A stretch of DNA of 36,956 nucleotides from a virus, in the IMG/VR virus record IMGVR_UViG_3300042924_003329, positions 1-36,956 of that record; one strand, given 5' to 3'. The notes below the pieces were generated by a model. The model saw only the letters and a program-made list of their open reading frames with translations. It searched no databases and was not told the DNA's origin. Positions 1,008 through 36,956 of the stretch are shown here, piece after piece. The first letter of the stretch is position 1; the number at the start of each line of letters is the position of its first letter. A program made the translations under genes and the position numbers.

Positions 1008-1877
1008 CTACAACTCGACTCCGCTTAGCGCACGCTTCTCGGCAGCTGCCGACGCACGCTCAGCCTCTTCCTCTGCCGTACCGCACTTTGCCATGTCGGT
1101 TCGGTAATAGCACACGATTGAGATGCGTTCCGCTTCATCATCGTGCAGCTGCATAAGCGTATTCCCATGCCACTGGTGTGCGTCCATAAGCAGCACGTCA
1201 CCGTCCTGCATATCGAATCCGACTCGGTACTCAGGGAAGGTAAAGATACCACCAGAGTAATCGCCTCGGCGCAAGCAGGTGAGATTTGAGAATCCTTCTT
1301 CTAGGTCGCCACTGTCAGTGTGAACTCCTGTCGGGTACGTATTGTTCACGGTGATGGTGGTGAATGGTGTATTCGGCACCACCCAGTCAGGTTTAGTTTC
1401 TAGCACCTTGCGCATCTGCACATCGTATCGGTCAGGCACGTACTGCCTGAACAGATCACCGATGCGTTGAAACAGCGGCAGCAGACCTTCCCACTGCTGC
1501 GTTTCCTTGCCTGTCCATGCCGTTAGTCGGCAGTACATACGCGGCATCTTGGCATCGAACGAACCAATGATCGCCGAAGCAACTGCCTTAGCCGAACTGC
1601 GCTTGCTTCCTTCGCGTGCTACGCGTACCGTTCCGCTCGCGAGCCCACGATTGTTCGTCTCATATGACTTCAGCGAATGCAGCGTATCGTAATACGAAGC
1701 AAGCACATCAGATGGGATCGCTTTAGGTCGGTACACTGCAAGCAGTTTGCCCTCGGGAGAATAAATACGAGCTGGTCCAGTGACCAACACATTGTAGTCA
1801 TCTTCCGTCAGGATCTTCCCTTTCTTTTCTTCAAGTTCCTCTGGCGAGATTCTTGTGCGAACACGGATATCGATCAT
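1008..1877 (-). CDS. TET/JBP-family 2-oxoglutarate/Fe(II) dioxygenase (DNA base oxidation)
   Basis: The 289-residue protein has the core of the TET/JBP nucleic-acid dioxygenases. It has the iron ligands H186 and D188 (G-V-H-T-D-S-G-D), a G-x-F-x-F-P-E-Y-R strand at 210-218, the distal histidine in H-G-N (H237) after L-L-M-D-A-H, and the 2-oxoglutarate-binding arginine R251 in R-I-S-I-V. A Y-C-R-L-T-A-W strand lies upstream at 115-121. Family members oxidise the methyl group of 5-methylcytosine or thymine in DNA. The start ATGA overlaps the stop of the TET-associated glycosyltransferase gene, so the two are translationally coupled and probably act in sequence: hydroxymethyl base, then sugar. 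The substrate base cannot be read from the sequence. I see no C5-cytosine methyltransferase in this genome. Confidence 0.85.
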   Translation of the reverse strand: MIDIRVRTRISPEELEEKKGKILTEDDYNVLVTGPARIYSPEGKLLAVYRPKAIPSDVLASYYDTLHSLKSYETNNRGLASGTVRVAREGSKRSSAKAVASAIIGSFDAKMPRMYCRLTAWTGKETQQWEGLLPLFQRIGDLFRQYVPDRYDVQMRKVLETKPDWVVPNTPFTTITVNNTYPTGVHTDSGDLEEGFSNLTCLRRGDYSGGIFTFPEYRVGFDMQDGDVLLMDAHQWHGNTLMQLHDDEAERISIVCYYRTDMAKCGTAEEEAERASAAAEKRALSGVEL

Positions 1878-2803
1878 TTGAACAGACCTTCCTTTTCTGC
1901 TTCCATTTCTTCTTCGACTTTGCGGATCATTTCGACCCAGCGGTCAAGCGTCACGTCCGTGACCGAAACCGAAAGATCCGCACCTGCCATTATACCTGAT
2001 TCTTTGATACGAAAGAATCCAGGATAAATCCGCATCAGCGTTTCGCAATCGGGAGCTCGGAACGGCAGCCGCTCCTCAGCGGTACCAAGACCACCCTCGA
2101 TGTACGTACTATGCTCGAAGAATCCAAAGTTGTTTAGTACAACCGAACCGAATACCTTGCACACTTCGGCAGAGTTCCGATAGTCTTCCATCGGAATGTT
2201 CTCGTCCCACTTGAAGCGCGAATCTTTTCGCATGATGATAAGGTGACCAGACACGTAGCCGACCCTTCGCCAGTGCTTCAGCCTGAAGAAGTAATTGTCT
2301 ACTACGGCGAACCCACCCATGATCGTATCCTGCGCGTTCATCCTTGCAAGGGTAGAGAAGAATAGTTCACGCCACCGCTTTGCATCGATTTCCGTCTTGA
2401 ACTCTCGCGAGATCGGTGCAAGCATGCGCTCGTCCACTGGCAGCACGACATTTTCGATGCCGTCATACGCTTTAGGCGCAGCGGAGCAGAACTTAATATC
2501 GTCGTCCGCGAATACTACCACTTCGCCTTCATCGAGCTGCTCCCATACCCACTGCATTTGCCTAACCTTGCCAGATCCAGGATACCCTGCGCGCACACCG
2601 CTAACGAACAGCTGTGCTTTGCCGCAGTCCTGAATCAGTTCATACGCATCTTTCGCTTCCTCGTCGTGAACCACCAGCACTTGCGTCATTTCATCGAACG
2701 CTGGCTGCTTTAGCGTTGACACACGCCCAGCCCTGTCGTACGACACAACGACCAATAGCGGCAGCTCCGCATCCGCGCTCCGCGGAATCACACGCTCAGC
2801 CAT
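1874..2803 (-). CDS. TET-associated glycosyltransferase (TAGT-type, GT-A fold)
   Basis: The start chosen is ATG 2803, seven bases after AAGGAG; the longer upstream reading runs through composite repeat copy A. The product has 309 residues. It opens with the beta strand L-L-V-V-V-S-Y-D-R of a GT-A nucleotide-sugar domain and has the metal-binding D-D-D triad at 100-102 (V-V-V-F-A-D-D-D-I-K-F). A G-G-F-A-V-V-D-N-Y segment and a G-H-L-I-I-M strand typical of the acceptor half follow. Family and neighbours match the phage TAGT enzymes known to sit beside TET/JBP dioxygenases and thought to glycosylate the oxidised base. The acceptor here is inferred from the coupled dioxygenase gene. Confidence 0.8.
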   Translation of the reverse strand: MAERVIPRSADAELPLLVVVSYDRAGRVSTLKQPAFDEMTQVLVVHDEEAKDAYELIQDCGKAQLFVSGVRAGYPGSGKVRQMQWVWEQLDEGEVVVFADDDIKFCSAAPKAYDGIENVVLPVDERMLAPISREFKTEIDAKRWRELFFSTLARMNAQDTIMGGFAVVDNYFFRLKHWRRVGYVSGHLIIMRKDSRFKWDENIPMEDYRNSAEVCKVFGSVVLNNFGFFEHSTYIEGGLGTAEERLPFRAPDCETLMRIYPGFFRIKESGIMAGADLSVSVTDVTLDRWVEMIRKVEEEMEAEKEGLFK

Positions 2804-2822
2804 GACGTTCCTCCTTGGAATA

Positions 2823-2880
2823 GCCCATGTATAACCGCACAGGGCTAGTCCTCTGTATTGGCAGGGGCAGGTGCCCCTGC
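2823..2880 (-). repeat. Composite repeat copy A (palindrome, 13-base spacer, CTAG, second hairpin)
   Basis: The palindrome CAGGGGCAGGTGCCCCTG occupies 2862-2879, CTAG is at 2845-2848 exactly 13 bases away, and the second-hairpin core is at 2823-2844 (degenerate, GCCC...GGGC). On the minus strand the order is palindrome, CTAG, hairpin, AAGGAGG and the TAGT start codon. The palindrome encodes the A-P-A-P-A C-terminus of the ParB-like protein, and CTAG supplies its TAG stop. Confidence 0.85.
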
Positions 2881-3597
2881 TGTATTGCCTTCGCTCTGCG
2901 ATGTGCCGATGCCGAGATGTTCCTCGGTATACGCAACGCACGCGAAGATGATTCCCAGAATGCTGCTCTCGCCTAGTTTGGCGCCAACAGTCTTCAATCG
3001 CTTAACGAAGGCAGCGTGCTCATCTGCTTTAATCAGCAGCGGCACTTCCTTCATCGCTGAACGGCTAGCACCAGAGTTATCCGTTGCGCGATTGACATGC
3101 TCCAGTCGTGCGCGCAGCTCCTCCTCTGTTTCGGCGTAGCCTCCCTTGAACTCCTCGTATGGCATAGTGACGGCAGCTGGATCCTGCGCTAGCAAGTCCT
3201 CGTACTCGTCAATAGTCCACAGCGTATCGAACAATCCTGGACCATCCGATAGCAGCGTGAGCGCATCCTTCAGTTTCTCGGTATCGTACGCCGACAGGTC
3301 GCTCGCCTTATTATCAGCGAGCAGGAATCCCATAGCGGTATGGTCGTCCACGTCCACGTAGTTCACCGCAATAGTTTCCCAACCCAGTGCGGAAGCAGCA
3401 CTCCACGTACCATTTCCCGCAATGATGTAGCCTGTCTTGGTTTGAACCACGATCGGCTTCATCTGACCGTACTTCTGAAGCGAACGCTGGATCGCTTCGA
3501 TCTTGTGCTTCCTGATATTCTTAGGGTGCGCTTTGACCGACATGATATCGACCGCCATACCCTGCAACGATGGTGCTATAACTGCTTCGTACTTCAT
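2845..3597 (-). CDS. ParB/Srx-fold nuclease-domain protein
   Basis: This 250-residue protein has an N-terminal ParB-type domain. Residues 23-50 read H-P-K-N-I-R-K-H...I-Q-R-S-L-Q-K-Y-G-Q-x-K-P-I-V-V, followed by G-Y-I-I-A-G-N-G-T-W-S-A-A at 57-69, the variant box II, and L-L-A-D-N-K-A-S-D. No clear helix-turn-helix follows; the C-terminal half is unassigned. Such stand-alone ParB domains occur in phages beside DNA-modification genes, and here it sits directly upstream of the glycosyltransferase and dioxygenase. It may be a nuclease, an NTP-binding accessory or a DNA-targeting factor for the modification enzymes. The last residues are dictated by the composite repeat. Confidence 0.75.
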   Translation of the reverse strand: MKYEAVIAPSLQGMAVDIMSVKAHPKNIRKHKIEAIQRSLQKYGQMKPIVVQTKTGYIIAGNGTWSAASALGWETIAVNYVDVDDHTAMGFLLADNKASDLSAYDTEKLKDALTLLSDGPGLFDTLWTIDEYEDLLAQDPAAVTMPYEEFKGGYAETEEELRARLEHVNRATDNSGASRSAMKEVPLLIKADEHAAFVKRLKTVGAKLGESSILGIIFACVAYTEEHLGIGTSQSEGNTAGAPAPANTED

Positions 3598-4398: not shown

Positions 4399-4413
4399 TG
4401 CTATTCCTCCTTG

Positions 4414-4475
4414 CAGTTAGCCGTGTCTAACGGCACTGCGCTAGTCCTGTATGCAAACAGGGGCAGGTGCCCCTG
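4414..4475 (-). repeat. Composite repeat copy B
   Basis: The perfect 18-bp palindrome is at 4458-4475, a 13-base spacer follows, CTAG is at 4441-4444, and the second hairpin GCCGT-gtcta-ACGGC is at 4420-4434, extended by CAGT/ACTG flanks. On the minus strand it lies just past the exonuclease stop and ends at the AAGGAGG of the Rad52-type gene. Confidence 0.9.
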
Positions 4476-4476
4476 C

Positions 4477-5436
4477 CTATTCGCCTTCGTTCTGTACCTT
4501 GAATCGGAATACGCGCGAACCAGCCTTCTCTTCAGTATGCTTTTTCAATAGCTCCTCGTAGGTGGCTGGATCCCACACGCGCACATAATCGGCTACCTCC
4601 AGCCAGTCTGTCTTGAGCGATGGCTTGTTCTGTTTCCACGTAGCCTGCCATCCACGACCCATAATGCCAACCTTGCTTCCAATCATTTCCTTCAACGCCA
4701 TCGAGATATCCTGCATCTTTTCGCTTGCGAGCCGTTCCTCCTCCGATGCTTCACGGTATTCTATTGCGAGTCGATCCGCTGCCGAATCAGCCAACTCCCA
4801 TTCCTCGCTTTGCTGCGGGTGCAGCTGCGCGAAGTAATCGGAATCGGATCCCGCAACAGCTGGCGCACGACCAGACTTCACGCGCTCCATGAAGTCCTGC
4901 GCCTTACGGAACATCTCCAACTGATACTGGTTCGACGCTTCAACTCGCTCGACGCGGAAGGTTAGCCCTCCGAGTAGTGCAGCTACGTCAACCCAAGGCG
5001 CTCCCGTGATCATCATTTGCCACTGCACTTGCGCCACCACTTCAGGAGGAACAGGATACAGCGACCAACGCGGAGATGAACTCGTCTTGATTTCGAGCAG
5101 TCCGTCTGTTCCGACAATCGTTCGGTCGAGTGATGCCATTGCCCATGGGTATTTCCGCATGCGCACAACACCATTCGACACACGAACCTTCACGCCTTTC
5201 TCCTGCTCGTACCACTTCGCTACCGAATCCTCAAGCAGCACGCCACGATTTGCAGCCGCACCCAGTTTGGGTGGCTGAACATCGCCGCGCTTCTCTGCCC
5301 AGAGTTGGTACGGTGTCTTGTACGGAGAGATGCCCAGAACGGCAGGAATGTCGCTAGCGCCCAGCCCTTCCTTGCGCAGTTTCAGCCACTCCTCGCTGCG
5401 CTGCTCTGCTTTGATGAACTCGTACTGCTTTGGCAT
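4477..5436 (-). CDS. YqaJ/lambda-exonuclease-like recombination nuclease
   Basis: The start at ATG 5436 overlaps the stop of the small gene upstream (TGATG). The 319-residue protein has the YqaJ pattern: R-x-x-E-W-L-K-L-R near 13-21, G-L-G-A-S-D-I-P-A-V-L-G-I-S-P-Y near 24-39, E-D at 69-70, D104, and the catalytic L-L-E-I-K-T-S with E115 and K117. Q-V-Q-W-Q-M-M follows near 136-142. It would degrade one strand of dsDNA ends 5'-3' and hand the single strand to the adjacent Rad52-type protein. A Glu-rich helix near 240-265 could contact a partner. Confidence 0.88.
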   Translation of the reverse strand: MPKQYEFIKAEQRSEEWLKLRKEGLGASDIPAVLGISPYKTPYQLWAEKRGDVQPPKLGAAANRGVLLEDSVAKWYEQEKGVKVRVSNGVVRMRKYPWAMASLDRTIVGTDGLLEIKTSSSPRWSLYPVPPEVVAQVQWQMMITGAPWVDVAALLGGLTFRVERVEASNQYQLEMFRKAQDFMERVKSGRAPAVAGSDSDYFAQLHPQQSEEWELADSAADRLAIEYREASEEERLASEKMQDISMALKEMIGSKVGIMGRGWQATWKQNKPSLKTDWLEVADYVRVWDPATYEELLKKHTEEKAGSRVFRFKVQNEGE

Positions 5437-5680: not shown

Positions 5681-5701
5681 GATCGTTCCTCCTTGCATTC
5701 A

Positions 5702-5757
5702 GCCGTGTATAACGGCACTAGACTAGTCGGCAGGTATGGCAGGGGCAACCTCCCCTG
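5702..5757 (-). repeat. Composite repeat copy C
   Basis: The 18-base arm CAGGGGCAACCTCCCCTG is at 5740-5757 and still pairs because both arms changed together (GGCAGGGG/CCCCTGCC). The spacer is 13 bases, CTAG is at 5723-5726, and hairpin GCCGT-gtata-ACGGC is at 5702-5716. CTAG again supplies the stop codon of the upstream gene, and AAGGAGG follows immediately. Confidence 0.9.
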
Positions 5758-5953
5758 CCATATGCCGCTTCGTTGTGTTACGGCGCAGACCTTCTGACTG
5801 CGCTTCTGTGAAGAATGCCGCAGCTCCGCTGACGTCATGCTCTTGGCTCGAGCAGTAGTACTTCCCTGACTGCTCGATCCAATACATAGCGCCATGCCCT
5901 TGCGGGCAGAACGCCAGCTGCTTTCCGCTAGCGGAGCTGCGGACTTTCTTCAT
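5723..5953 (-). CDS. Small Cys/His protein, 76 aa
   Basis: Unrecognised. The peptide has a possible zinc site (F-C-P-Q-G-H near 15-20, Y-Y-C-S-S-Q-E-H near 32-39) and a basic middle. Its C-terminal A-G-E-V-A-P-A-I-P-A-D is encoded by composite repeat copy C. It overlaps the stop of the preceding zinc-ribbon gene by four bases. It belongs to a run of small Cys-rich accessory proteins between the recombination genes and 9.6 kb. Confidence 0.6.
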   Translation of the reverse strand: MKKVRSSASGKQLAFCPQGHGAMYWIEQSGKYYCSSQEHDVSGAAAFFTEAQSEGLRRNTTKRHMAGEVAPAIPAD

Positions 5954-7638: not shown

Positions 7639-7666
7639 ATTATGCCTGATCTGCTGTATAAAGCAA
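7639..7666 (-). promoter_or_regulatory. Promoter P1 (TTGCTT-16-CATAAT)
   Basis: On the minus strand a -35-like TTGCTT (7661-7666) and a -10-like CATAAT (7639-7644) are 16 bases apart. The inverted repeat TGCT-N6-AGCA overlaps the -35 and spacer. The site lies in the last codons of the upstream glycosylase-like gene and faces the HELSH gene. Confidence 0.65.
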
Positions 7667-8167
7667 GTCGAGTTCGGATTTGGGTCGTACAGCCGTCCCG
7701 ACCGACCCGACCCGACCCGACTTGTCCGTCCAGACCCAGCCGTCAGACTCGACCCAAACATACGGCATGTCATCGCGTTCGCGCCAACCAAACTGACCAT
7801 AGTACGCGGAATCTTTGCGCAATAGATTGCTGCGATGCGATGAATGTAGCGGTTCGTAACCTAGCCATGGCGGAATGTCATATTCCTGCGCAGCGTACGC
7901 AGCATCAAGATGTCCTAGGATTTTTTGACCGCACGTATCCTTGTATCCGCGACGAATCCATTCATCGCAGATAGCGATACCGTACGAGATAAGGTGTACG
8001 CGGTGACCGCGCCACATTTTGGTAGCGGGATGGTTGACCCAGCCGCGACTCTGTCCGTTGAGAGCATTGAGAATCTGCAATGTTTCAACGCGCTGTTTGC
8101 CCAGCCTGCGATAATCTAGGCAGCGAGCTGTTTCCTGATACGAATCATACGGTAAGAACGTCTGCAT
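7640..8167 (-). CDS. Pyrimidine-dimer DNA glycosylase-like protein (MSMEG_6728-type)
   Basis: The start at ATG 8167 follows ATAGGAGGACTTGAT. The 175-residue protein begins M-Q-T-F-L-P-Y-D-S-Y and continues with L-D-Y-R-R-L-G-K-Q-R-V-E-T-L-Q-I-L near 18-34. It then has W-V-N-H-P-A-T-K-M-W-R-G-H and E-W-I-R-R-G-Y. This is the signature of the T4 endonuclease V-related family annotated as pyrimidine dimer glycosylase or MSMEG_6728-like. A role in UV-damage repair is the family expectation; acting on modified phage DNA is another possibility. The C-terminus overlaps promoter P1. Confidence 0.75.
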   Translation of the reverse strand: MQTFLPYDSYQETARCLDYRRLGKQRVETLQILNALNGQSRGWVNHPATKMWRGHRVHLISYGIAICDEWIRRGYKDTCGQKILGHLDAAYAAQEYDIPPWLGYEPLHSSHRSNLLRKDSAYYGQFGWRERDDMPYVWVESDGWVWTDKSGRVGSVGTAVRPKSELDLLYTADQA

Positions 8168-8187
8168 ATCAAGTCCTCCTATATGCT

Positions 8188-8412
8188 TCAGCAATCATAG
8201 CCGTCGTCTGACGGCATTATGCCTGATCGCTTGCCATTAAGCAAGTGATTCTTGTACGTGCTGGCAAAGCAATGCTCGATAGCGTCCATCACTGCGATTG
8301 TACGAAGCGAGCGCCGAACCTTGTATCCGCAAGTGCATTCCGCTTCATATCCGCTAATCGCTCCTGCTTCACTTGGCTGAGTATCTTCGACCTGCTTGAT
8401 TTCGTGTAACAT
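8188..8412 (-). CDS. Small Cys-rich protein, 74 aa
   Basis: ATG 8412 follows AGGAGGACTAGT. The middle reads E-C-T-C-G-Y-K-V-R-R-S near 25-35, with a further cysteine at 48 (E-H-C-F-A), and looks like a small zinc-binding or beta-ribbon protein found in many phages. The last 15 residues are encoded by promoter P2 and its hairpin, so their sequence may reflect DNA-level constraint. No function is recognised. Confidence 0.6.
   Translation of the reverse strand: MLHEIKQVEDTQPSEAGAISGYEAECTCGYKVRRSLRTIAVMDAIEHCFASTYKNHLLNGKRSGIMPSDDGYDC
8200..8215 (-). other. Leader hairpin downstream of promoter P2
   Basis: GCCGTC-agac-GACGGC on the minus strand directly follows the CATAAT of P2, so it would lie at the very 5' end of the transcript, before the AGGAGG of the glycosylase-like gene. 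Confidence 0.6.
8216..8245 (-). promoter_or_regulatory. Promoter P2 (TTGCTT-17-CATAAT) with inverted repeat
   Basis: TTGCTT (8239-8244) and CATAAT (8216-8221) are 17 bases apart on the minus strand. The inverted repeat CTTGC-N6-GCAAG covers 8230-8245. It drives the pyrimidine-dimer-glycosylase-like gene from inside the 3' end of the preceding gene. Confidence 0.7.
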
Positions 8413-8429
8413 ACTAGTCCTCCTGTTGG

Positions 8430-8498
8430 CAGGGAACAATGCCCCTAGCCACATACATAGCTAGCCCAGTGCCGTTAGATACGGTCACTTTCGAGCTC
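8430..8498 (+). repeat. Composite repeat copy D (plus orientation)
   Basis: The degenerate 18-base arm is at 8430-8447, then exactly 13 bases, CTAG at 8461-8464, the hairpin GTG-CCGT-tagat-ACGG-t-CAC, and the tail CTTTCGAGCTC. The copy faces opposite to all genes, between the genes ending at 8485 and starting at 8412. It therefore cannot work there only as a leader RNA of the downstream gene. Confidence 0.85.
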
Positions 8499-8814
8499 CA
8501 TCCTCTGTGCGTCCGTTCGGTACCGTGTCGCAGCTATCGCAGGCTGCGTCGAACATCCAGCCAACCCACGCTGCAGGCAGCCAATCGTTCGGCTTCATTT
8601 CTGGGTTCTGCTTGCGCACCTCCGACACGCAGTCGATGCACTGCGCTGGCGCATATGGACCAGCGAAGCGATATCGGTACAGACCGCTGCCCTTGCGAGC
8701 AGCGATCCGACTCGCTAGTGCGTTCGCCTCTCTCTGCAGCTGCAGCGCCTGCTCGTGGAACAGTTCCTGCTTCTTGTTTTCCTCGATGATTGCAAGATCC
8801 TTGAACTTACCCAT
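8485..8814 (-). CDS. Small zinc-ribbon/coiled-coil protein, 109 aa
   Basis: ATG 8814 follows GGAGGTGCGATA and overlaps the preceding stop (TAATG). The first 40 residues are a charged helix (I-I-E-E-N-K-K-Q-E-L...L-Q-L-Q-R-E-A-N-A-L-A-S-R). The second half has two knuckles, C-I-D-C near 59-62 and C-D-S-C near 92-95. The last codons overlap the tail of composite repeat copy D. Function unknown. Confidence 0.6.
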   Translation of the reverse strand: MGKFKDLAIIEENKKQELFHEQALQLQREANALASRIAARKGSGLYRYRFAGPYAPAQCIDCVSEVRKQNPEMKPNDWLPAAWVGWMFDAACDSCDTVPNGRTEDGARK

Positions 8815-9149: not shown

Positions 9150-9227
9150 CCATGGTTTCCGGACTATTTTTGGGAGGAGCTCTCGAGCTCGAGCCGCCTG
9201 AGCCGCCCAACGTCGAGCTCGATCAAA

Positions 9228-9283
9228 CCCATACAGGACGGCACTGGGCTAGGGTTGTACGATGGCAAGGGCAGGTGCCCCTG
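9228..9283 (-). repeat. Composite repeat copy E
   Basis: The 18-base arm CAAGGGCAGGTGCCCCTG is at 9266-9283, 13 bases follow, CTAG is at 9249-9252, and CCCAGTGCCGTCCTGTATGGG (minus strand) is at 9228-9248. The tail continues into the GATCGAGCTCGA palindrome, as in copies D, F and G. Confidence 0.85.
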
Positions 9284-9302
9284 TCTGTACAATCACGGCT
9301 CC

Positions 9303-9339
9303 AATAGTAAATGACCCTCCCGCGTCAGCGGAAGGGTCA
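9303..9339 (-). terminator. Terminator-like hairpin downstream of the metallophosphoesterase group
   Basis: On the minus strand TGACCCTTCCGC-tgac-GCGGGAGGGTCA forms a 12-position stem with one G-U pair (9312-9339), followed by TTTACTATT. The T-rich tail is short, so termination may be partial. Confidence 0.55.
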
Positions 9340-23557: not shown

Positions 23558-24003
23558 CAGGGTGCGATATCCGAAACGACGGATCGCGCACGCACTTCGG
23601 TGCGGAGATCCACAGCTAGCAGATCCTCCTCGCCTCCGTAGGCTACGTCGCCCATAGTCACGCCGACAACCATGCAAGAATACACGCCACTCACGTCGAG
23701 ATTCTGATTGCCTACCGCTGCCTTCACGAGATGGTCGCGCCAAGTGTAGAGTGCCTTCATGCCACGATCCAAACCTGCCGAGCGCGGAATGATGAAGCGT
23801 ACGGTGAATGTGTACAGCTCGTCAATCTGCTTGTTCATCATATAGGAAAGCGTAGAATCTGGTGGCATAATCACGACAGCAGGGAAGGTCGAGATCGCAT
23901 CTGGCATGAATACTGTGGACTGCTTGATCGGATCGTATCCTGTTGGTGGCGTGATTCCGGAGAATCTTGCCGCGAGTGCTGTACCTACTGCATATGTATC
24001 CAT
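23557..24003 (-). CDS. Tail terminator/neck-type protein, 148 aa
   Basis: This protein starts at ATG 24003, coupled to the upstream connector. It has A-L-A-A-R-F, T-F-P-A-V-V-I-M-P-P-D-S-T-L-S-Y and E-L-Y-T-F-T-V-R-F-I-I-P segments. An R-D-H-L-V-K-A-A helix follows. Size and order (connector, this gene, tube group) fit a tail terminator, but gp10 and terminator orders vary between phages. Confidence 0.6.
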   Translation of the reverse strand: MDTYAVGTALAARFSGITPPTGYDPIKQSTVFMPDAISTFPAVVIMPPDSTLSYMMNKQIDELYTFTVRFIIPRSAGLDRGMKALYTWRDHLVKAAVGNQNLDVSGVYSCMVVGVTMGDVAYGGEEDLLAVDLRTEVRARSVVSDIAP

Positions 24004-24602
24004 TAAACAGCCTGCGGAGGCACGCGATATGCGCGCAGCATTTGCTCCACGTCCGGATCCAATCGCGCGAGTAAGCGCATTTGCCCAACCTCAGGCGATC
24101 CCGCGATTCCGAACGGAGTATTCCTTCGGTTGAAGATCCTGCCGCTCTGGATAATGGCTGCTACCTCAACAGGCTTAGGCACGCTCGACCAGCCACGCAC
24201 GCCAACTACCTTCACGCCTCTCGTGACGGTGATCGGGAAGGTGCGCGCTCCCCATGTTGTAGCCTGAATCATATTGTACGGTCGACCTGTTGTGGCAGCA
24301 TTGTACGGCATGAGGGCATAATCTGCGGTTCCCCAAGTAGTTTCGTAATTGCCGTTCGCGTCATCGTCGGCGGTCAGTGAGGACACGCTTACGAAGTCGT
24401 CAATCGGCAATGTGAGGTATTCGTCAGCCTCGTAATATGCCGTCACGGTACCAGCGTTATAGAAGAAGCGTCCTGTGTAGTCATCGATCAAGCGCGATAC
24501 GGACTCGATCACTAGGTCGAGTTGTGAATCGGAATCCGAATCGATGATACCAAGCGCAGCCTTCACAGCTGACCCAGTCGTGTATCCGTTAGTAATCGCC
24601 AT
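24003..24602 (-). CDS. Head-tail connector (gp6-like adaptor), 199 aa
   Basis: The N-terminus (N-G-Y-T-T-G-S-A-V-K-A-A-L-G-I, then L-D-L-V-I-E-S-V-S-R-L-I-D-D-Y-T-G-R-F-F-Y) matches gp6-type adaptors that bind the portal ring. A strand-rich insert and the helix P-V-E-V-A-A-I-I-Q-S-G-R-I-F follow. It comes right before the tail genes. Confidence 0.75.
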   Translation of the reverse strand: MAITNGYTTGSAVKAALGIIDSDSDSQLDLVIESVSRLIDDYTGRFFYNAGTVTAYYEADEYLTLPIDDFVSVSSLTADDDANGNYETTWGTADYALMPYNAATTGRPYNMIQATTWGARTFPITVTRGVKVVGVRGWSSVPKPVEVAAIIQSGRIFNRRNTPFGIAGSPEVGQMRLLARLDPDVEQMLRAYRVPPQAV

Positions 24603-24611
24603 CGCAGCTCC

Positions 24612-25844
24612 TTATTTCTTGTGCTTGGCTGCCCTGCGCTGCTCTCGGTTTAGCGCGGTAGCGGATCCGCTAGTGACGCGCTGTTCGAGCTCTTTCAGAA
24701 TAGGATGCCAGTGTTCTGCGTATACTTTCGTAGTGGTGTATCCAGCCGCGAACGTCACCGCAGCCTCCGATGCCGCCTTAGCCTGTTCAGTTGACTTCAT
24801 TTCGTATGATTCCTCGAGCGCCGCGATGATGCGCTTAACTTCCGGAACCATCCACCAGCCAGTCTGCATTTCGTCCCATTCTGGCTGCCCATCGACTTTC
24901 CATCCGGATCCGACTAGCTCAGGCTGCGCAGTCCAGTTTGTGACGATCACAGGAGTGCCGCATGCCTGTGCTTCGATAGCTGGCACGCCGAATCCCTCGC
25001 CACGCGAAGTCATCAGTAGTACGTCCGCTGCTGTGTATAGTCGAGCCAATACTTCAGACGGCAGCCCTTGCCTAAACTCGAACTGCGGCACGATACGCAC
25101 GCGATCTGCTGGCGCATCAACTGCCTGAAGCAGTCGCTCCAGTTTGACGCCATTCGCCAGACCGAAGAAGTCGGTGTGAAGATAGAGATATGCGTTCGGC
25201 TTCGACTTCGCGAAGGTTGACCACGCGAGCAGCATTTCAGGGAAACACTTGCGGATAGGCGTGATGCCCTTATTCGCGGAGTTGATCATCGTGAGGTGCG
25301 CATCCTCCGGAATGTTTAGATCCTTTCGAATCTCGCTTTCCGTTGGCTTGAAGATATTGTCATTGAAAGAATGCGGAGCGTAGAATAGATTCTCGCGAGA
25401 GATGCCAGCCTTCAGCATTTCATGCTCGCCGAATCGGCTCATCGCGATCGCCCACTTGCCCTTGCCCTTGCGGTCGAACCACGCCTTGACTTCGGCTGGA
25501 ACAACGCTATGATCGATCGGAGTCCAAGAAGCAATCGGAATCTCGTCCCATTGCGGAGACTTGTATACCCACACATCGTAGAGCGTGATGCCGAGTCCAG
25601 GAACCTGCGGATCCTGCGCCATCCACCATGCCATCTGCGCTGGCGTTAGGTCGTTGCTGTATGCGTCCATCCCTTGCTGCATAACGGGAACGCCATTCCA
25701 CTCAAGCGTGGTTCCAGCCAACCCGTAATTAGCCATGATGGCAACCTTGTGTCCGTCGGCTACCAGCCTAGGTACAATCTCCTGTGTCTGCATTCCGTAT
25801 CCCGTAGGCGACCATGGAGCATTCGAAGTCCAACCAATACGCAT
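24612..25844 (-). CDS. GT4-type glycosyltransferase (GT-B fold), 410 aa
   Basis: The N-terminal half starts M-R-I-G-W-T-S-N-A-P-W-S-P-T-G-Y-G, a GT-B acceptor domain. The C-terminal donor domain shows A-D-V-L-L-M-T-S-R-G-E-G-F-G-V-P-A-I-E-A-Q-A-C-G-T-P-V, the E-x7-E signature of family 4. The protein ends in a basic tail (N-R-E-Q-R-R-A-A-K-H-K-K). It sits between major capsid and connectors with its own promoter P4 and leader hairpin, so it is expressed apart from its structural neighbours. It could glycosylate capsid proteins or the modified DNA. Confidence 0.85.
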   Translation of the reverse strand: MRIGWTSNAPWSPTGYGMQTQEIVPRLVADGHKVAIMANYGLAGTTLEWNGVPVMQQGMDAYSNDLTPAQMAWWMAQDPQVPGLGITLYDVWVYKSPQWDEIPIASWTPIDHSVVPAEVKAWFDRKGKGKWAIAMSRFGEHEMLKAGISRENLFYAPHSFNDNIFKPTESEIRKDLNIPEDAHLTMINSANKGITPIRKCFPEMLLAWSTFAKSKPNAYLYLHTDFFGLANGVKLERLLQAVDAPADRVRIVPQFEFRQGLPSEVLARLYTAADVLLMTSRGEGFGVPAIEAQACGTPVIVTNWTAQPELVGSGWKVDGQPEWDEMQTGWWMVPEVKRIIAALEESYEMKSTEQAKAASEAAVTFAAGYTTTKVYAEHWHPILKELEQRVTSGSATALNREQRRAAKHKK

Positions 25845-25856
25845 ATTTGCCTCCCT

Positions 25857-25874
25857 TGACCGAAGAGTCGGTCA
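25857..25874 (-). other. Leader hairpin downstream of promoter P4
   Basis: TGACCGA-ctct-TCGGTCA on the minus strand forms a seven-pair stem overlapping the last base of the -10 and ending just before GGGAGG of the glycosyltransferase gene. Confidence 0.6.
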
Positions 25875-25902
25875 GCATGCCTCGAACCTGCTTATAAAGC
25901 AA
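25874..25902 (-). promoter_or_regulatory. Promoter P4 (TTGCTT-17-CATGCT) with inverted repeat
   Basis: TTGCTT (25897-25902) and CATGCT (25874-25879) are 17 bases apart on the minus strand. The inverted repeat TGCTT-N3-AAGCA covers 25889-25901. It faces the GT4 glycosyltransferase. Confidence 0.65.
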
Positions 25903-25908
25903 GCACCA

Positions 25909-25981
25909 TTTCGAGCTCGAAAGAGCCCGTATCCAGACGCACTGGACTAGCGTTAGAGATATCTGAACGCGAGTGCCCCTG
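25909..25981 (-). repeat. Composite repeat copy F (left arm degraded)
   Basis: CTAG (25947-25950), the 13-base spacer and the 18-base block (25964-25981) keep their distances, but the far arm no longer pairs; instead the block shares bases with the capsid-gene hairpin. The second-hairpin core CCAGTGCGTCTGGATACGG and the TTTCGAGCTCGAAA tail are present. It lies between the capsid hairpin and promoter P4. Confidence 0.8.
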
Positions 25982-26008
25982 CCGCCAGACCGAAGTCTAG
26001 CGGCAGGG
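25977..26008 (-). terminator. Strong UUCG-loop hairpin after the capsid gene
   Basis: CCCTGCCGCTAGAC-ttcg-GTCTGGCGGCAGGG forms a 14-position stem with one G-U pair and a UUCG loop, 27 bases past the capsid stop. No T tract follows, so it may act as a partial terminator, an RNA stabiliser or an expression-level control for the very abundant capsid mRNA. Confidence 0.6.
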
Positions 26009-26034
26009 AGCAACTCTACCCTAGTTAGCTAGGA

Positions 26035-34529: not shown

Positions 34530-34908
34530 ATACGGTAATGGTTACCTCCGTCACTCCGCGAGCGAGATCGATTCCGAGCGTGTGCCATACGGCAGGTGCT
34601 AGGTCAATCAATCGCTCTCTTCCTCCACCAGCAAGACATTTACACCAATCCACGATCCAAACTACAGCCTGTTTGCCTGTGCGTTCAGAGCGAATCAACA
34701 CTGCTTTAGGTTTCATCTTCCATTTGACGGGAATCAGTTTGCGGAGAGCTGGACCTGCCGCTCCATATAACTTGATACCTGCTCGAGTATACCAGCTGCT
34801 TTGCCCATTCCGTGCCGCATCATACCACGTAGCGATGCCGTTTAGTTTGGCTGGCGGTCGATCACCGAGCCCTGCGATGACAAGTGCTACCGCTAGCACC
34901 GCTGCCAT
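34519..34908 (-). CDS. Exported RlpA-like double-psi beta-barrel protein, 129 aa
   Basis: The start at ATG 34908 overlaps the methyltransferase stop (TGATG). A signal or anchor (A-A-V-L-A-V-A-L-V-I-A-G-L) is followed by the barrel: G-I-A-T-W-Y-D near 24-30, V-D-W-C-K-C near 86-91, and R-L-I-D-L-A-P-A-V-W-H-T-L-G near 99-112. The last segment is the RlpA-like hallmark. RlpA proteins bind or cleave glycan strands of peptidoglycan. It could act on the cell wall at entry, lysis or superinfection exclusion. Confidence 0.7.
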   Translation of the reverse strand: MAAVLAVALVIAGLGDRPPAKLNGIATWYDAARNGQSSWYTRAGIKLYGAAGPALRKLIPVKWKMKPKAVLIRSERTGKQAVVWIVDWCKCLAGGGRERLIDLAPAVWHTLGIDLARGVTEVTITVYED

Positions 34909-35513
34909 CAACCAGCGTCCTCGAGCGACGCAATCGTTGGGTGCGTGGCTGGCTTAGCGTAAACCAGCACCTGATTCTGGAATAGAGTTCCAGGAATCCA
35001 CTTGCGATCGAATAGCGCCTCGATTACTGCTGTTTTCCCTTCTCCTTTGCCGTGATAGTCATCGATGGCGATTAGCGCGCCGATGCGCATATGGTCATAT
35101 ACTTGCTTCAGCTCCTGATAGTGGTGCTCTGCGCTGCCTTTGTGATACGCGTCCATCGAATCAAGGTATAGCAGATCGATATTCTGTTTATTCGGCATCT
35201 CGCGAAGTGCATCCACCGAATCACCGTGAATATATTGCGCGCGATCCGTGAACTTCCGAGCCAAGTCAATAGCAGATTGGTCGAGTTCGCAAGTCACAAC
35301 ATGCCCACCGTACTCACGAGCCATCCAATCCCAGACGCGGGTGCTCTGACCGTCGCCATCCCAGTTATCTGCTTGGCGCATGCTGCCTGTTTCCACTAGG
35401 TAAATCGGACGGCAAAGATTTCCGAGATATTCGTTGACGTGATTAAAGAAATCCCATCGGTTGCTTTGCCCGAGAACTAATTCGAACTTATTTGTGAAAC
35501 GCTGGTTGTTCAT
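34908..35513 (-). CDS. Class I SAM-dependent methyltransferase, 201 aa
   Basis: A Rossmann methyltransferase: L-V-E-T-G-S-M near 39-45, T-C-E-L-D near 74-78, I-H-G-D-S-V-D-A-L near 95-103, and L-L-Y-L-D-S-M-D-A-Y near 114-123. I-D-D-Y-H-G-K-G follows. The second D-D pair fits O-methyltransferases of the TylF/FkbM type, which act on sugars and small molecules. It lacks the P-C-Q and E-N-V motifs of C5-cytosine enzymes. It might methylate the sugar on the modified base, but the target is unknown. Confidence 0.75.
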   Translation of the reverse strand: MNNQRFTNKFELVLGQSNRWDFFNHVNEYLGNLCRPIYLVETGSMRQADNWDGDGQSTRVWDWMAREYGGHVVTCELDQSAIDLARKFTDRAQYIHGDSVDALREMPNKQNIDLLYLDSMDAYHKGSAEHHYQELKQVYDHMRIGALIAIDDYHGKGEGKTAVIEALFDRKWIPGTLFQNQVLVYAKPATHPTIASLEDAG

Positions 35514-36766: not shown

Positions 36767-36956
36767 TCGACCTCCTCGACTATCATTTCTTCATCCATAG
36801 GCAGGGGCACCTGCCCCTGCTGTACTGTCAGACTATCCATGTGCGGCTGGATAGCCACGCTTTCGAGCTCAGACACGAGAACCGAGGGCAACGGACGATT
36901 GCGAAGGTGATATAGGAATGCCACGTATTGCCGCTCCGACATCGGAATCATCTCCG
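36763..36956 (-). CDS. PD-(D/E)XK-like nuclease, 3' part (continues from base 526 across the join)
   Basis: This is the C-terminal third of the gene that starts at 526. Its stop overlaps the kinase start (ATGA at 36763-36766). The last 25 residues (L-T-V-Q-Q-G-Q-V-P-L-P-M-D-E-E) are encoded by composite repeat copy G. The amino acid sequence is identical to the copy at the left end despite two base changes. Confidence 0.75.
   Translation of the reverse strand, partial: EMIPMSERQYVAFLYHLRNRPLPSVLVSELESVAIQPHMDSLTVQQGQVPLPMDEEMIVEEVE
36783..36956. repeat. Terminal direct repeat, right copy
   Basis: This is the match of 1-174, with g at 36804 and c at 36829 instead of a at 22 and a at 47. Both changed bases lie in composite repeat copy G. 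Confidence 0.9.
36802..36870 (+). repeat. Composite repeat copy G (plus orientation, inside a gene)
   Basis: Palindrome CAGGGGCACCTGCCCCTG at 36802-36819, 13 bases, CTAT (for CTAG) at 36833-36836, the hairpin core CATGTGCGGCTGGATAGCCACGC and the TTTCGAGCTC tail lie within the coding end of the nuclease gene. The same copy is seen at 20-88 in the left terminal repeat, with one palindrome mismatch. Confidence 0.75.

Follow-up and report, generated by a model that had tools for sequence, protein, structure and literature searches.

On the minus strand of the DNA analysed here, a HK97-fold major capsid protein gene lay upstream, followed by a GT4-type glycosyltransferase gene (GT4) and then a gp6-like head-tail connector gene. 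The features of this locus were as follows.

24003–24602, minus strand: gp6-like head-tail connector gene (phrog_442, 8.7e-19)
24612–25844, minus strand: GT4-type glycosyltransferase gene, 410 aa, ATG at 25844 (from the ORF, Pfam, PHROG and fold model)
25850–25855, minus strand: Shine-Dalgarno-like GGGAGG, five bases 5′ of the GT4 ATG
25857–25874, minus strand: small 7-bp hairpin, just 5′ of the GT4 Shine-Dalgarno
25899–25984, minus strand: diverged copy (E5) of a dispersed element, in the capsid-GT4 gap, where a promoter (P4) had been proposed
25977–26008, minus strand: capsid hairpin, 14-bp stem and UUCG loop, behind the capsid stop codon
26035–27216, minus strand: HK97-fold major capsid protein gene (PF05065, 6.8e-46)

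The whole stretch (the window) was a record of 36,956 bases, whose ends (1–174 and 36783–36956) formed a 174-base direct repeat with two mismatches. Because its two ends repeat, the window is probably a complete genome of ~36.8 kb.

A reading of the letters alone, made earlier (the sequence-only reading), had placed a GT4 gene between capsid and connector, and the open reading frame, the Pfam and PHROG matches and the flanking genes all agreed with it. The GT4 protein matched PF00534 (Glycos_transf_1) at 7.9e-14, with 52 bits against a curated cut-off of 26.4, and PHROG_2170 at 2.9e-40. E-x7-E is the catalytic motif of retaining GT-B enzymes; E283-x7-E291 and R198-K199 were conserved in the GT4 alignment, E283, R198 and K199 being invariant among 21 sequences and E291 present in at least 90%. 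A GT-B fold was predicted by AlphaFold2 (pLDDT 84, pTM 0.84; 19 aligned sequences), and the model gave 372 matches in the PDB at E ≤ 0.001, of which the top ones were GT-B enzymes. The closest solved folds were MshA, sucrose-phosphate synthase, chlorovirus B736L, WaaG and others. Alignment of upstream regions indicated that GGAGG of the GT4 Shine-Dalgarno was retained among relatives. The enzyme looks intact by sequence and fold model, and its domain, motif and predicted fold place this putative enzyme among the GT4-type retaining GT-B glycosyltransferases.

A glycosyltransferase (GT) profile search of viral contigs confirmed at least 582 relatives, of which 80 were kept. A PF05065 capsid match was present in 49 of 51 records examined. 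Among 32 loci picked for flank length, 31 had a capsid match ending no more than 1.1 kb upstream of the GT, and 30 had a connector 10–3351 bp downstream of it. On the capsid side, a search with the capsid alignment was employed; 80 loci were kept and 75 used, leaving out L148, L158, L161, L162 and L163, where the capsid match was cut. Here the GT followed on the same strand, 72–257 nt after the capsid stop codon, in 72/75 loci, and such co-inheritance with the capsid gene is, by our own criterion, one mark of a virion (capsid) glycosylation system. Two of the three capsid loci lacking a GT left less than 2 kb for one (285 and 1634 nt); L178, the third, had 4,000 nt. Divergence of the capsid protein tracked that of the GT (Spearman 0.85, 31 loci), against a protease control that was loosely chosen and pooled ORFs of unequal length. 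Bacterial genome collections contributed seven relatives, of which five were examined; in L091, L092 and L097 a capsid match stood just upstream of the GT, provided that the contigs match up in the way their coordinates imply. On sequence evidence, capsid gene and GT4 are a two-gene unit maintained throughout a broad group of tailed phages, a linkage that fits any late function. Partial coverage of the literature yielded no printed report of it, and the parts of PMC6811365, PMC10611076 and PMC7771536 that were available contained nothing on it.

The capsid-GT4 gap folded at −90.3 kcal/mol, compared with −63.8 for shuffled sequence (z −6.4). Both hairpins that the sequence-only reading had described there were recovered. 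The capsid hairpin (14 bp, UUCG) was the strongest 50-nt fold on the entire minus strand; the second, which had been attributed to promoter P4, was the 7-bp hairpin at 25857–25874, and was missing from L010 and L012. The capsid hairpin was present in 22/22 capsid-GT gaps that were folded, each beating its shuffles (z −2.4 to −6.4). In a comparison of 11 sequences, both-sided (compensatory) changes occurred at stem pairs 2, 4, 10 and 14, and the last stem pair had three non-pairing cells. The stem was GC-rich, as in an intrinsic terminator; a T-run directly 3′ of it was not found in the window, the sequence there being GCACTCGCG. L178 (5158–9158) kept the capsid gene and the hairpin with no GT match in its 4,000 nt, and so the hairpin is apparently a feature of the capsid gene or its operon rather than of GT4. 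It is a candidate attenuator or mRNA end. ARAGORN detected no tRNA in the gap or anywhere else in the window, and Rfam RNA families gave no match within the window, including the gap.

GT4 had also been credited with a private promoter, P4, in this gap. Scanning for sigma70-like promoters required two hexamers with a 15–19 nt spacer scoring above chance, and the host's promoter type may differ from this. No minus-strand site was detected within 25845–26034. The best hexamer pair in the gap (8/12) was equalled or beaten by 53% of 500 dinucleotide shuffles, and a sigma70 promoter P4 was rejected. L010 and L012, whose GTs were 81% and 69% identical, had no counterpart of the ~125 bp that separate the capsid hairpin from the Shine-Dalgarno in the window, the very stretch that would hold P4. 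Only 19–25 nt separated the hairpin from the start codon in nine relatives (L010, L014–L017, L020 and L022–L024), and therefore a full promoter behind the hairpin does not fit there; this argument covers the space behind the hairpin, a promoter within the capsid gene being a separate possibility.

When the gap was compared with all other parts of the window, a dispersed intergenic element of ~85 bp emerged instead, at seven distinct sites and in both orientations. It was built of two hairpin-forming parts and a CTAG-led core, followed either by a palindrome resembling TCGAGCTCGA or by a Shine-Dalgarno-like sequence. Besides E5 in the gap, the copies were as follows.

2801–2883, minus strand: copy E1, overlapping the start of a TAGT-like ORF (ATG 2803)
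4399–4479, minus strand: copy E2, leader of a Rad52-like gene (ATG 4398)
5684–5762, minus strand: copy E3, with a Shine-Dalgarno-like site after it and no long gene identified
9202–9287, minus strand: copy E4, no gene start within 120 nt
8427–8512, plus strand: copy E6, inverted, upstream of a 74-aa ORF whose start is at 8412 on the minus strand
36798–36881, plus strand: copy E7, inverted, before a dNMP kinase gene (ATG 36766, minus strand)

Copy E7 recurred at 16–99, inside the terminal repeat. E5 was recovered at E 3.2e-9 by a profile made without it from the remaining six copies, and leave-one-out profiles also recovered each of those six. The core pattern, at ≤1 mismatch, occurred five times against 0.2 expected, E5 being too diverged to count among the five. 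Directly after element copies lay the TAGT-like ORF, the Rad52-like gene, the 74-aa ORF and the dNMP kinase gene; two copies (E3 and E4) lacked a convincing gene start. A strong terminator-like hairpin with a T-rich tail (9312–9339, minus strand) adjoined E4.

In the records scanned, only near-identical contigs carried the full element (G001 and G002 pieces, L006 and L008). No copy was detected in G004/G005 pieces, L010, L012, L014, L016–L018, L020, L022 or more distant records, and the relatives without it included those with a 69–81% identical GT. A strict element pattern, stricter than several of the window copies, matched 0 viral contigs, and a 95-base copy used as a query matched no phage record. 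To judge by these scans, the element is lineage-specific among the records covered. The proposal of early-type control of GT4 thereby survived in part: its promoter was at chance level, but it has a real basis since the gap holds a copy of an element common to early-type genes, whose “early” status was taken from gene function. Given this copy, GT4 expression here may not be confined to the late phase.

The ORFs between capsid and connector were then searched for sugar genes in 69 proteins, comprising 67 of 101 such ORFs, chosen mainly by length, and two annotated Mae-JY09 genes. Thirteen of the 69 matched nucleotide-sugar epimerase/dehydratase, nine GT2 and three NTP_transf_3; there were also several O-methyltransferases (including the CmcI type), one GT17 and one sialyltransferase PHROG. 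PHROG_2675, which is labelled DNA methyltransferase, matched 12/69, and its label is doubtful for island proteins because at least one matching protein also resembled a CmcI-type O-methyltransferase. In the window, GT4 stood alone between capsid and connector, without sugar-synthesis genes. A Methyltransf_24 protein matching PHROG_2675 was encoded at 34908–35513 of the window; this may be an O-methyltransferase of sugars that has moved away from the capsid locus.

The linkage to the capsid gene and the neighbouring sugar-synthesis genes favour virion glycosylation over a role on DNA. We consider it reasonably probable that GT4 is a virion glycosyltransferase, most likely of the capsid, normally expressed late with the capsid and here provided with a lineage-specific early-type element. 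The gene, fold, linkage, conserved hairpin, element copy and sugar-gene neighbours on which this is built were computed. For donor and acceptor we infer that GT4, a soluble retaining GT-B enzyme, would move a sugar from a nucleotide-sugar donor onto a virion protein, the most likely acceptor being the major capsid protein, from the gene just upstream. The effects of hairpin and element are likewise inferred. The hairpin most likely would pass part of late transcripts only, or trim or protect capsid mRNA, so that capsid would be plentiful and the enzyme scarce. In many relatives, the genes after GT4 would encode further enzymes making, adding or methylating sugars; the window phage, with GT4 alone at its capsid locus, would draw on a host nucleotide sugar. 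The element copy would have been gained between hairpin and ribosome-binding site in the window lineage, or lost by relatives, and may add earlier GT4 expression.

An unlikely alternative target is a host surface polymer, modified for example to exclude further phages, with the position in the head block due to chance. Some of the solved folds nearest to GT4 are of enzymes that glycosylate small molecules, lipids and polysaccharides, and the sugar-modifying genes of relatives would also suit surface polymers, but the near-invariable spot behind the capsid gene (72/75) is not expected of such an enzyme. We think it improbable that GT4 decorates another virion protein, of the tail or connector, and not the capsid: connector and tail genes do lie directly downstream, and the sugar-gene island sits between capsid and connector, but linkage and co-divergence were tightest with the capsid, as far as the loosely chosen protease control allows.

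TAGT is the name for TET/JBP-associated glycosyltransferases. A TET/JBP dioxygenase was encoded at 1008–1877 of the window (PF12851, 2.3e-25), adjoined by the TAGT-like ORF, whose sole support was PHROG_842 at E 0.0053; where the sequence-only reading had counted two glycosyltransferases in the genome, GT4 was clear and this one weak. The dioxygenase, the TAGT-like ORF (likely start 2803) and a ParB-like gene stood in a row at 1008–3597, a probable DNA base-modification cassette. A pyrimidine dimer DNA glycosylase (PF03013, 2.3e-24) was encoded at 7640–8194. The cassette had no match in the near relatives G004 and G005, whose GT4 was 71–72% identical to that of the window; the TET/JBP, TAGT-like, ParB-like, dNMP kinase and 34908–35513 methyltransferase proteins each lacked a match there. 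A search of 30 GT4 records with the window TET/JBP protein, the window serving as positive control, gave a match in the window only (0/29 others). G004, G010 and G027, with GT4 and no TET/JBP match, are probably complete because their ends repeat (281, 126 and 141 bases). A 25-aa “TAGT” match in G002 was discounted, falling within the overlap of the TAGT-like ORF with the ParB-like gene and upstream of the likely start at 2803; G001 and G002 end before the TAGT-like region.

The reverse test took 42 of 61 TET/JBP records, mainly by length; this GT was absent from 39/42 and present in 3/42, and many of these records were fragments, so that the absences are soft. In the three, the GT was far from TET/JBP and not adjacent to it, GT2-like and CmcI-type O- or FkbM-methyltransferase genes lay near it, and none had a PF05065 capsid match. 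In the window itself, GT4 and TET/JBP were at least ~12 kb apart, even if the genome is circular. A TET/JBP partnership of GT4 was rejected on these counts, and the DNA glycosylation that had been suggested is disfavoured. It is thus very improbable that GT4 glycosylates phage DNA with the TET/JBP and TAGT-like enzymes and is expressed early for that reason, even though the window has both and GT4 shares its upstream element with the TAGT-like ORF and the dNMP kinase gene.

Building on capsid glycosylation as the preferred reading, we tentatively raise a further possibility, which we would not yet back: capsid gene, hairpin and GT4 may form the constant front part of an exchangeable “capsid serotype” locus. 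GT4 would add the first capsid sugar, a variable island (epimerases, GT2, O-methyltransferases and a sialyltransferase-like gene) would build the rest, and the window would be a minimal form with GT4 under an early-type element. If this were true, aquatic phages would change their shell glycans through swaps of island genes.

To our knowledge, few bacterial viruses have documented capsid glycosylation. Retention of the capsid-GT pair in 72/75 loci from an environmental capsid lineage points to glycosylated shells as a possibly common trait of aquatic phages, and one gene beside the capsid gene offers a simple genetic handle for testing this. Lineage-specific gain or loss of the early-type element is a small natural experiment in expression timing.

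Among known systems, the mycobacteriophages Che8 and Rita carry glycans covalently on their major capsid proteins and have phage-encoded glycosyltransferases, according to the part of PMC11256854 available; they share such an enzyme with the window, a likeness by description. In the related mycobacteriophage Maravista, GT genes lie near the genome 3′ end (same part of PMC11256854), whereas that of the window lies behind the capsid gene. Chlorovirus capsid glycans and B736L are treated in PMC4691112, from the available part of which chloroviruses have a glycosylated major capsid protein. B736L (PDB 3oy2) is, like GT4, a viral retaining GT-B enzyme with a matching fold (TM 0.71); unlike GT4, with which it shares 15% identity, it belongs to a eukaryotic large DNA virus, and for it a GDP-sugar donor is suggested only, as far as that part of the source goes.

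The dispersed element resembles the SAS/ESAS of cluster K mycobacteriophages, which, in the part of PMC3203893 available, are repeats, some with inverted arms, 5′ of the translation starts of non-structural genes; in both cases repeats precede non-structural genes within one phage group. Unlike SAS, the element of the window occurs in both orientations, and its sequence is its own. The 13-bp SAS sequence gave six matches in the window at ≤3 mismatches against 6.8 expected, no more than chance, and identity of the element with cluster K SAS was rejected.

A parallel in gene order came from Pontimonas phage phiPsal1 (MG835450), which is mentioned in PMC6106888, its genes not being discussed in the part available. 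Unlike the window, phiPsal1 had no TET/JBP match, had methyltransferase and GT2 genes after its GT, and its gap hairpin ended in a T-run, like an intrinsic terminator. Like the window, it had a hairpin in the capsid-GT gap, and its gene 010, 38% identical, is a GT between capsid and neck genes.
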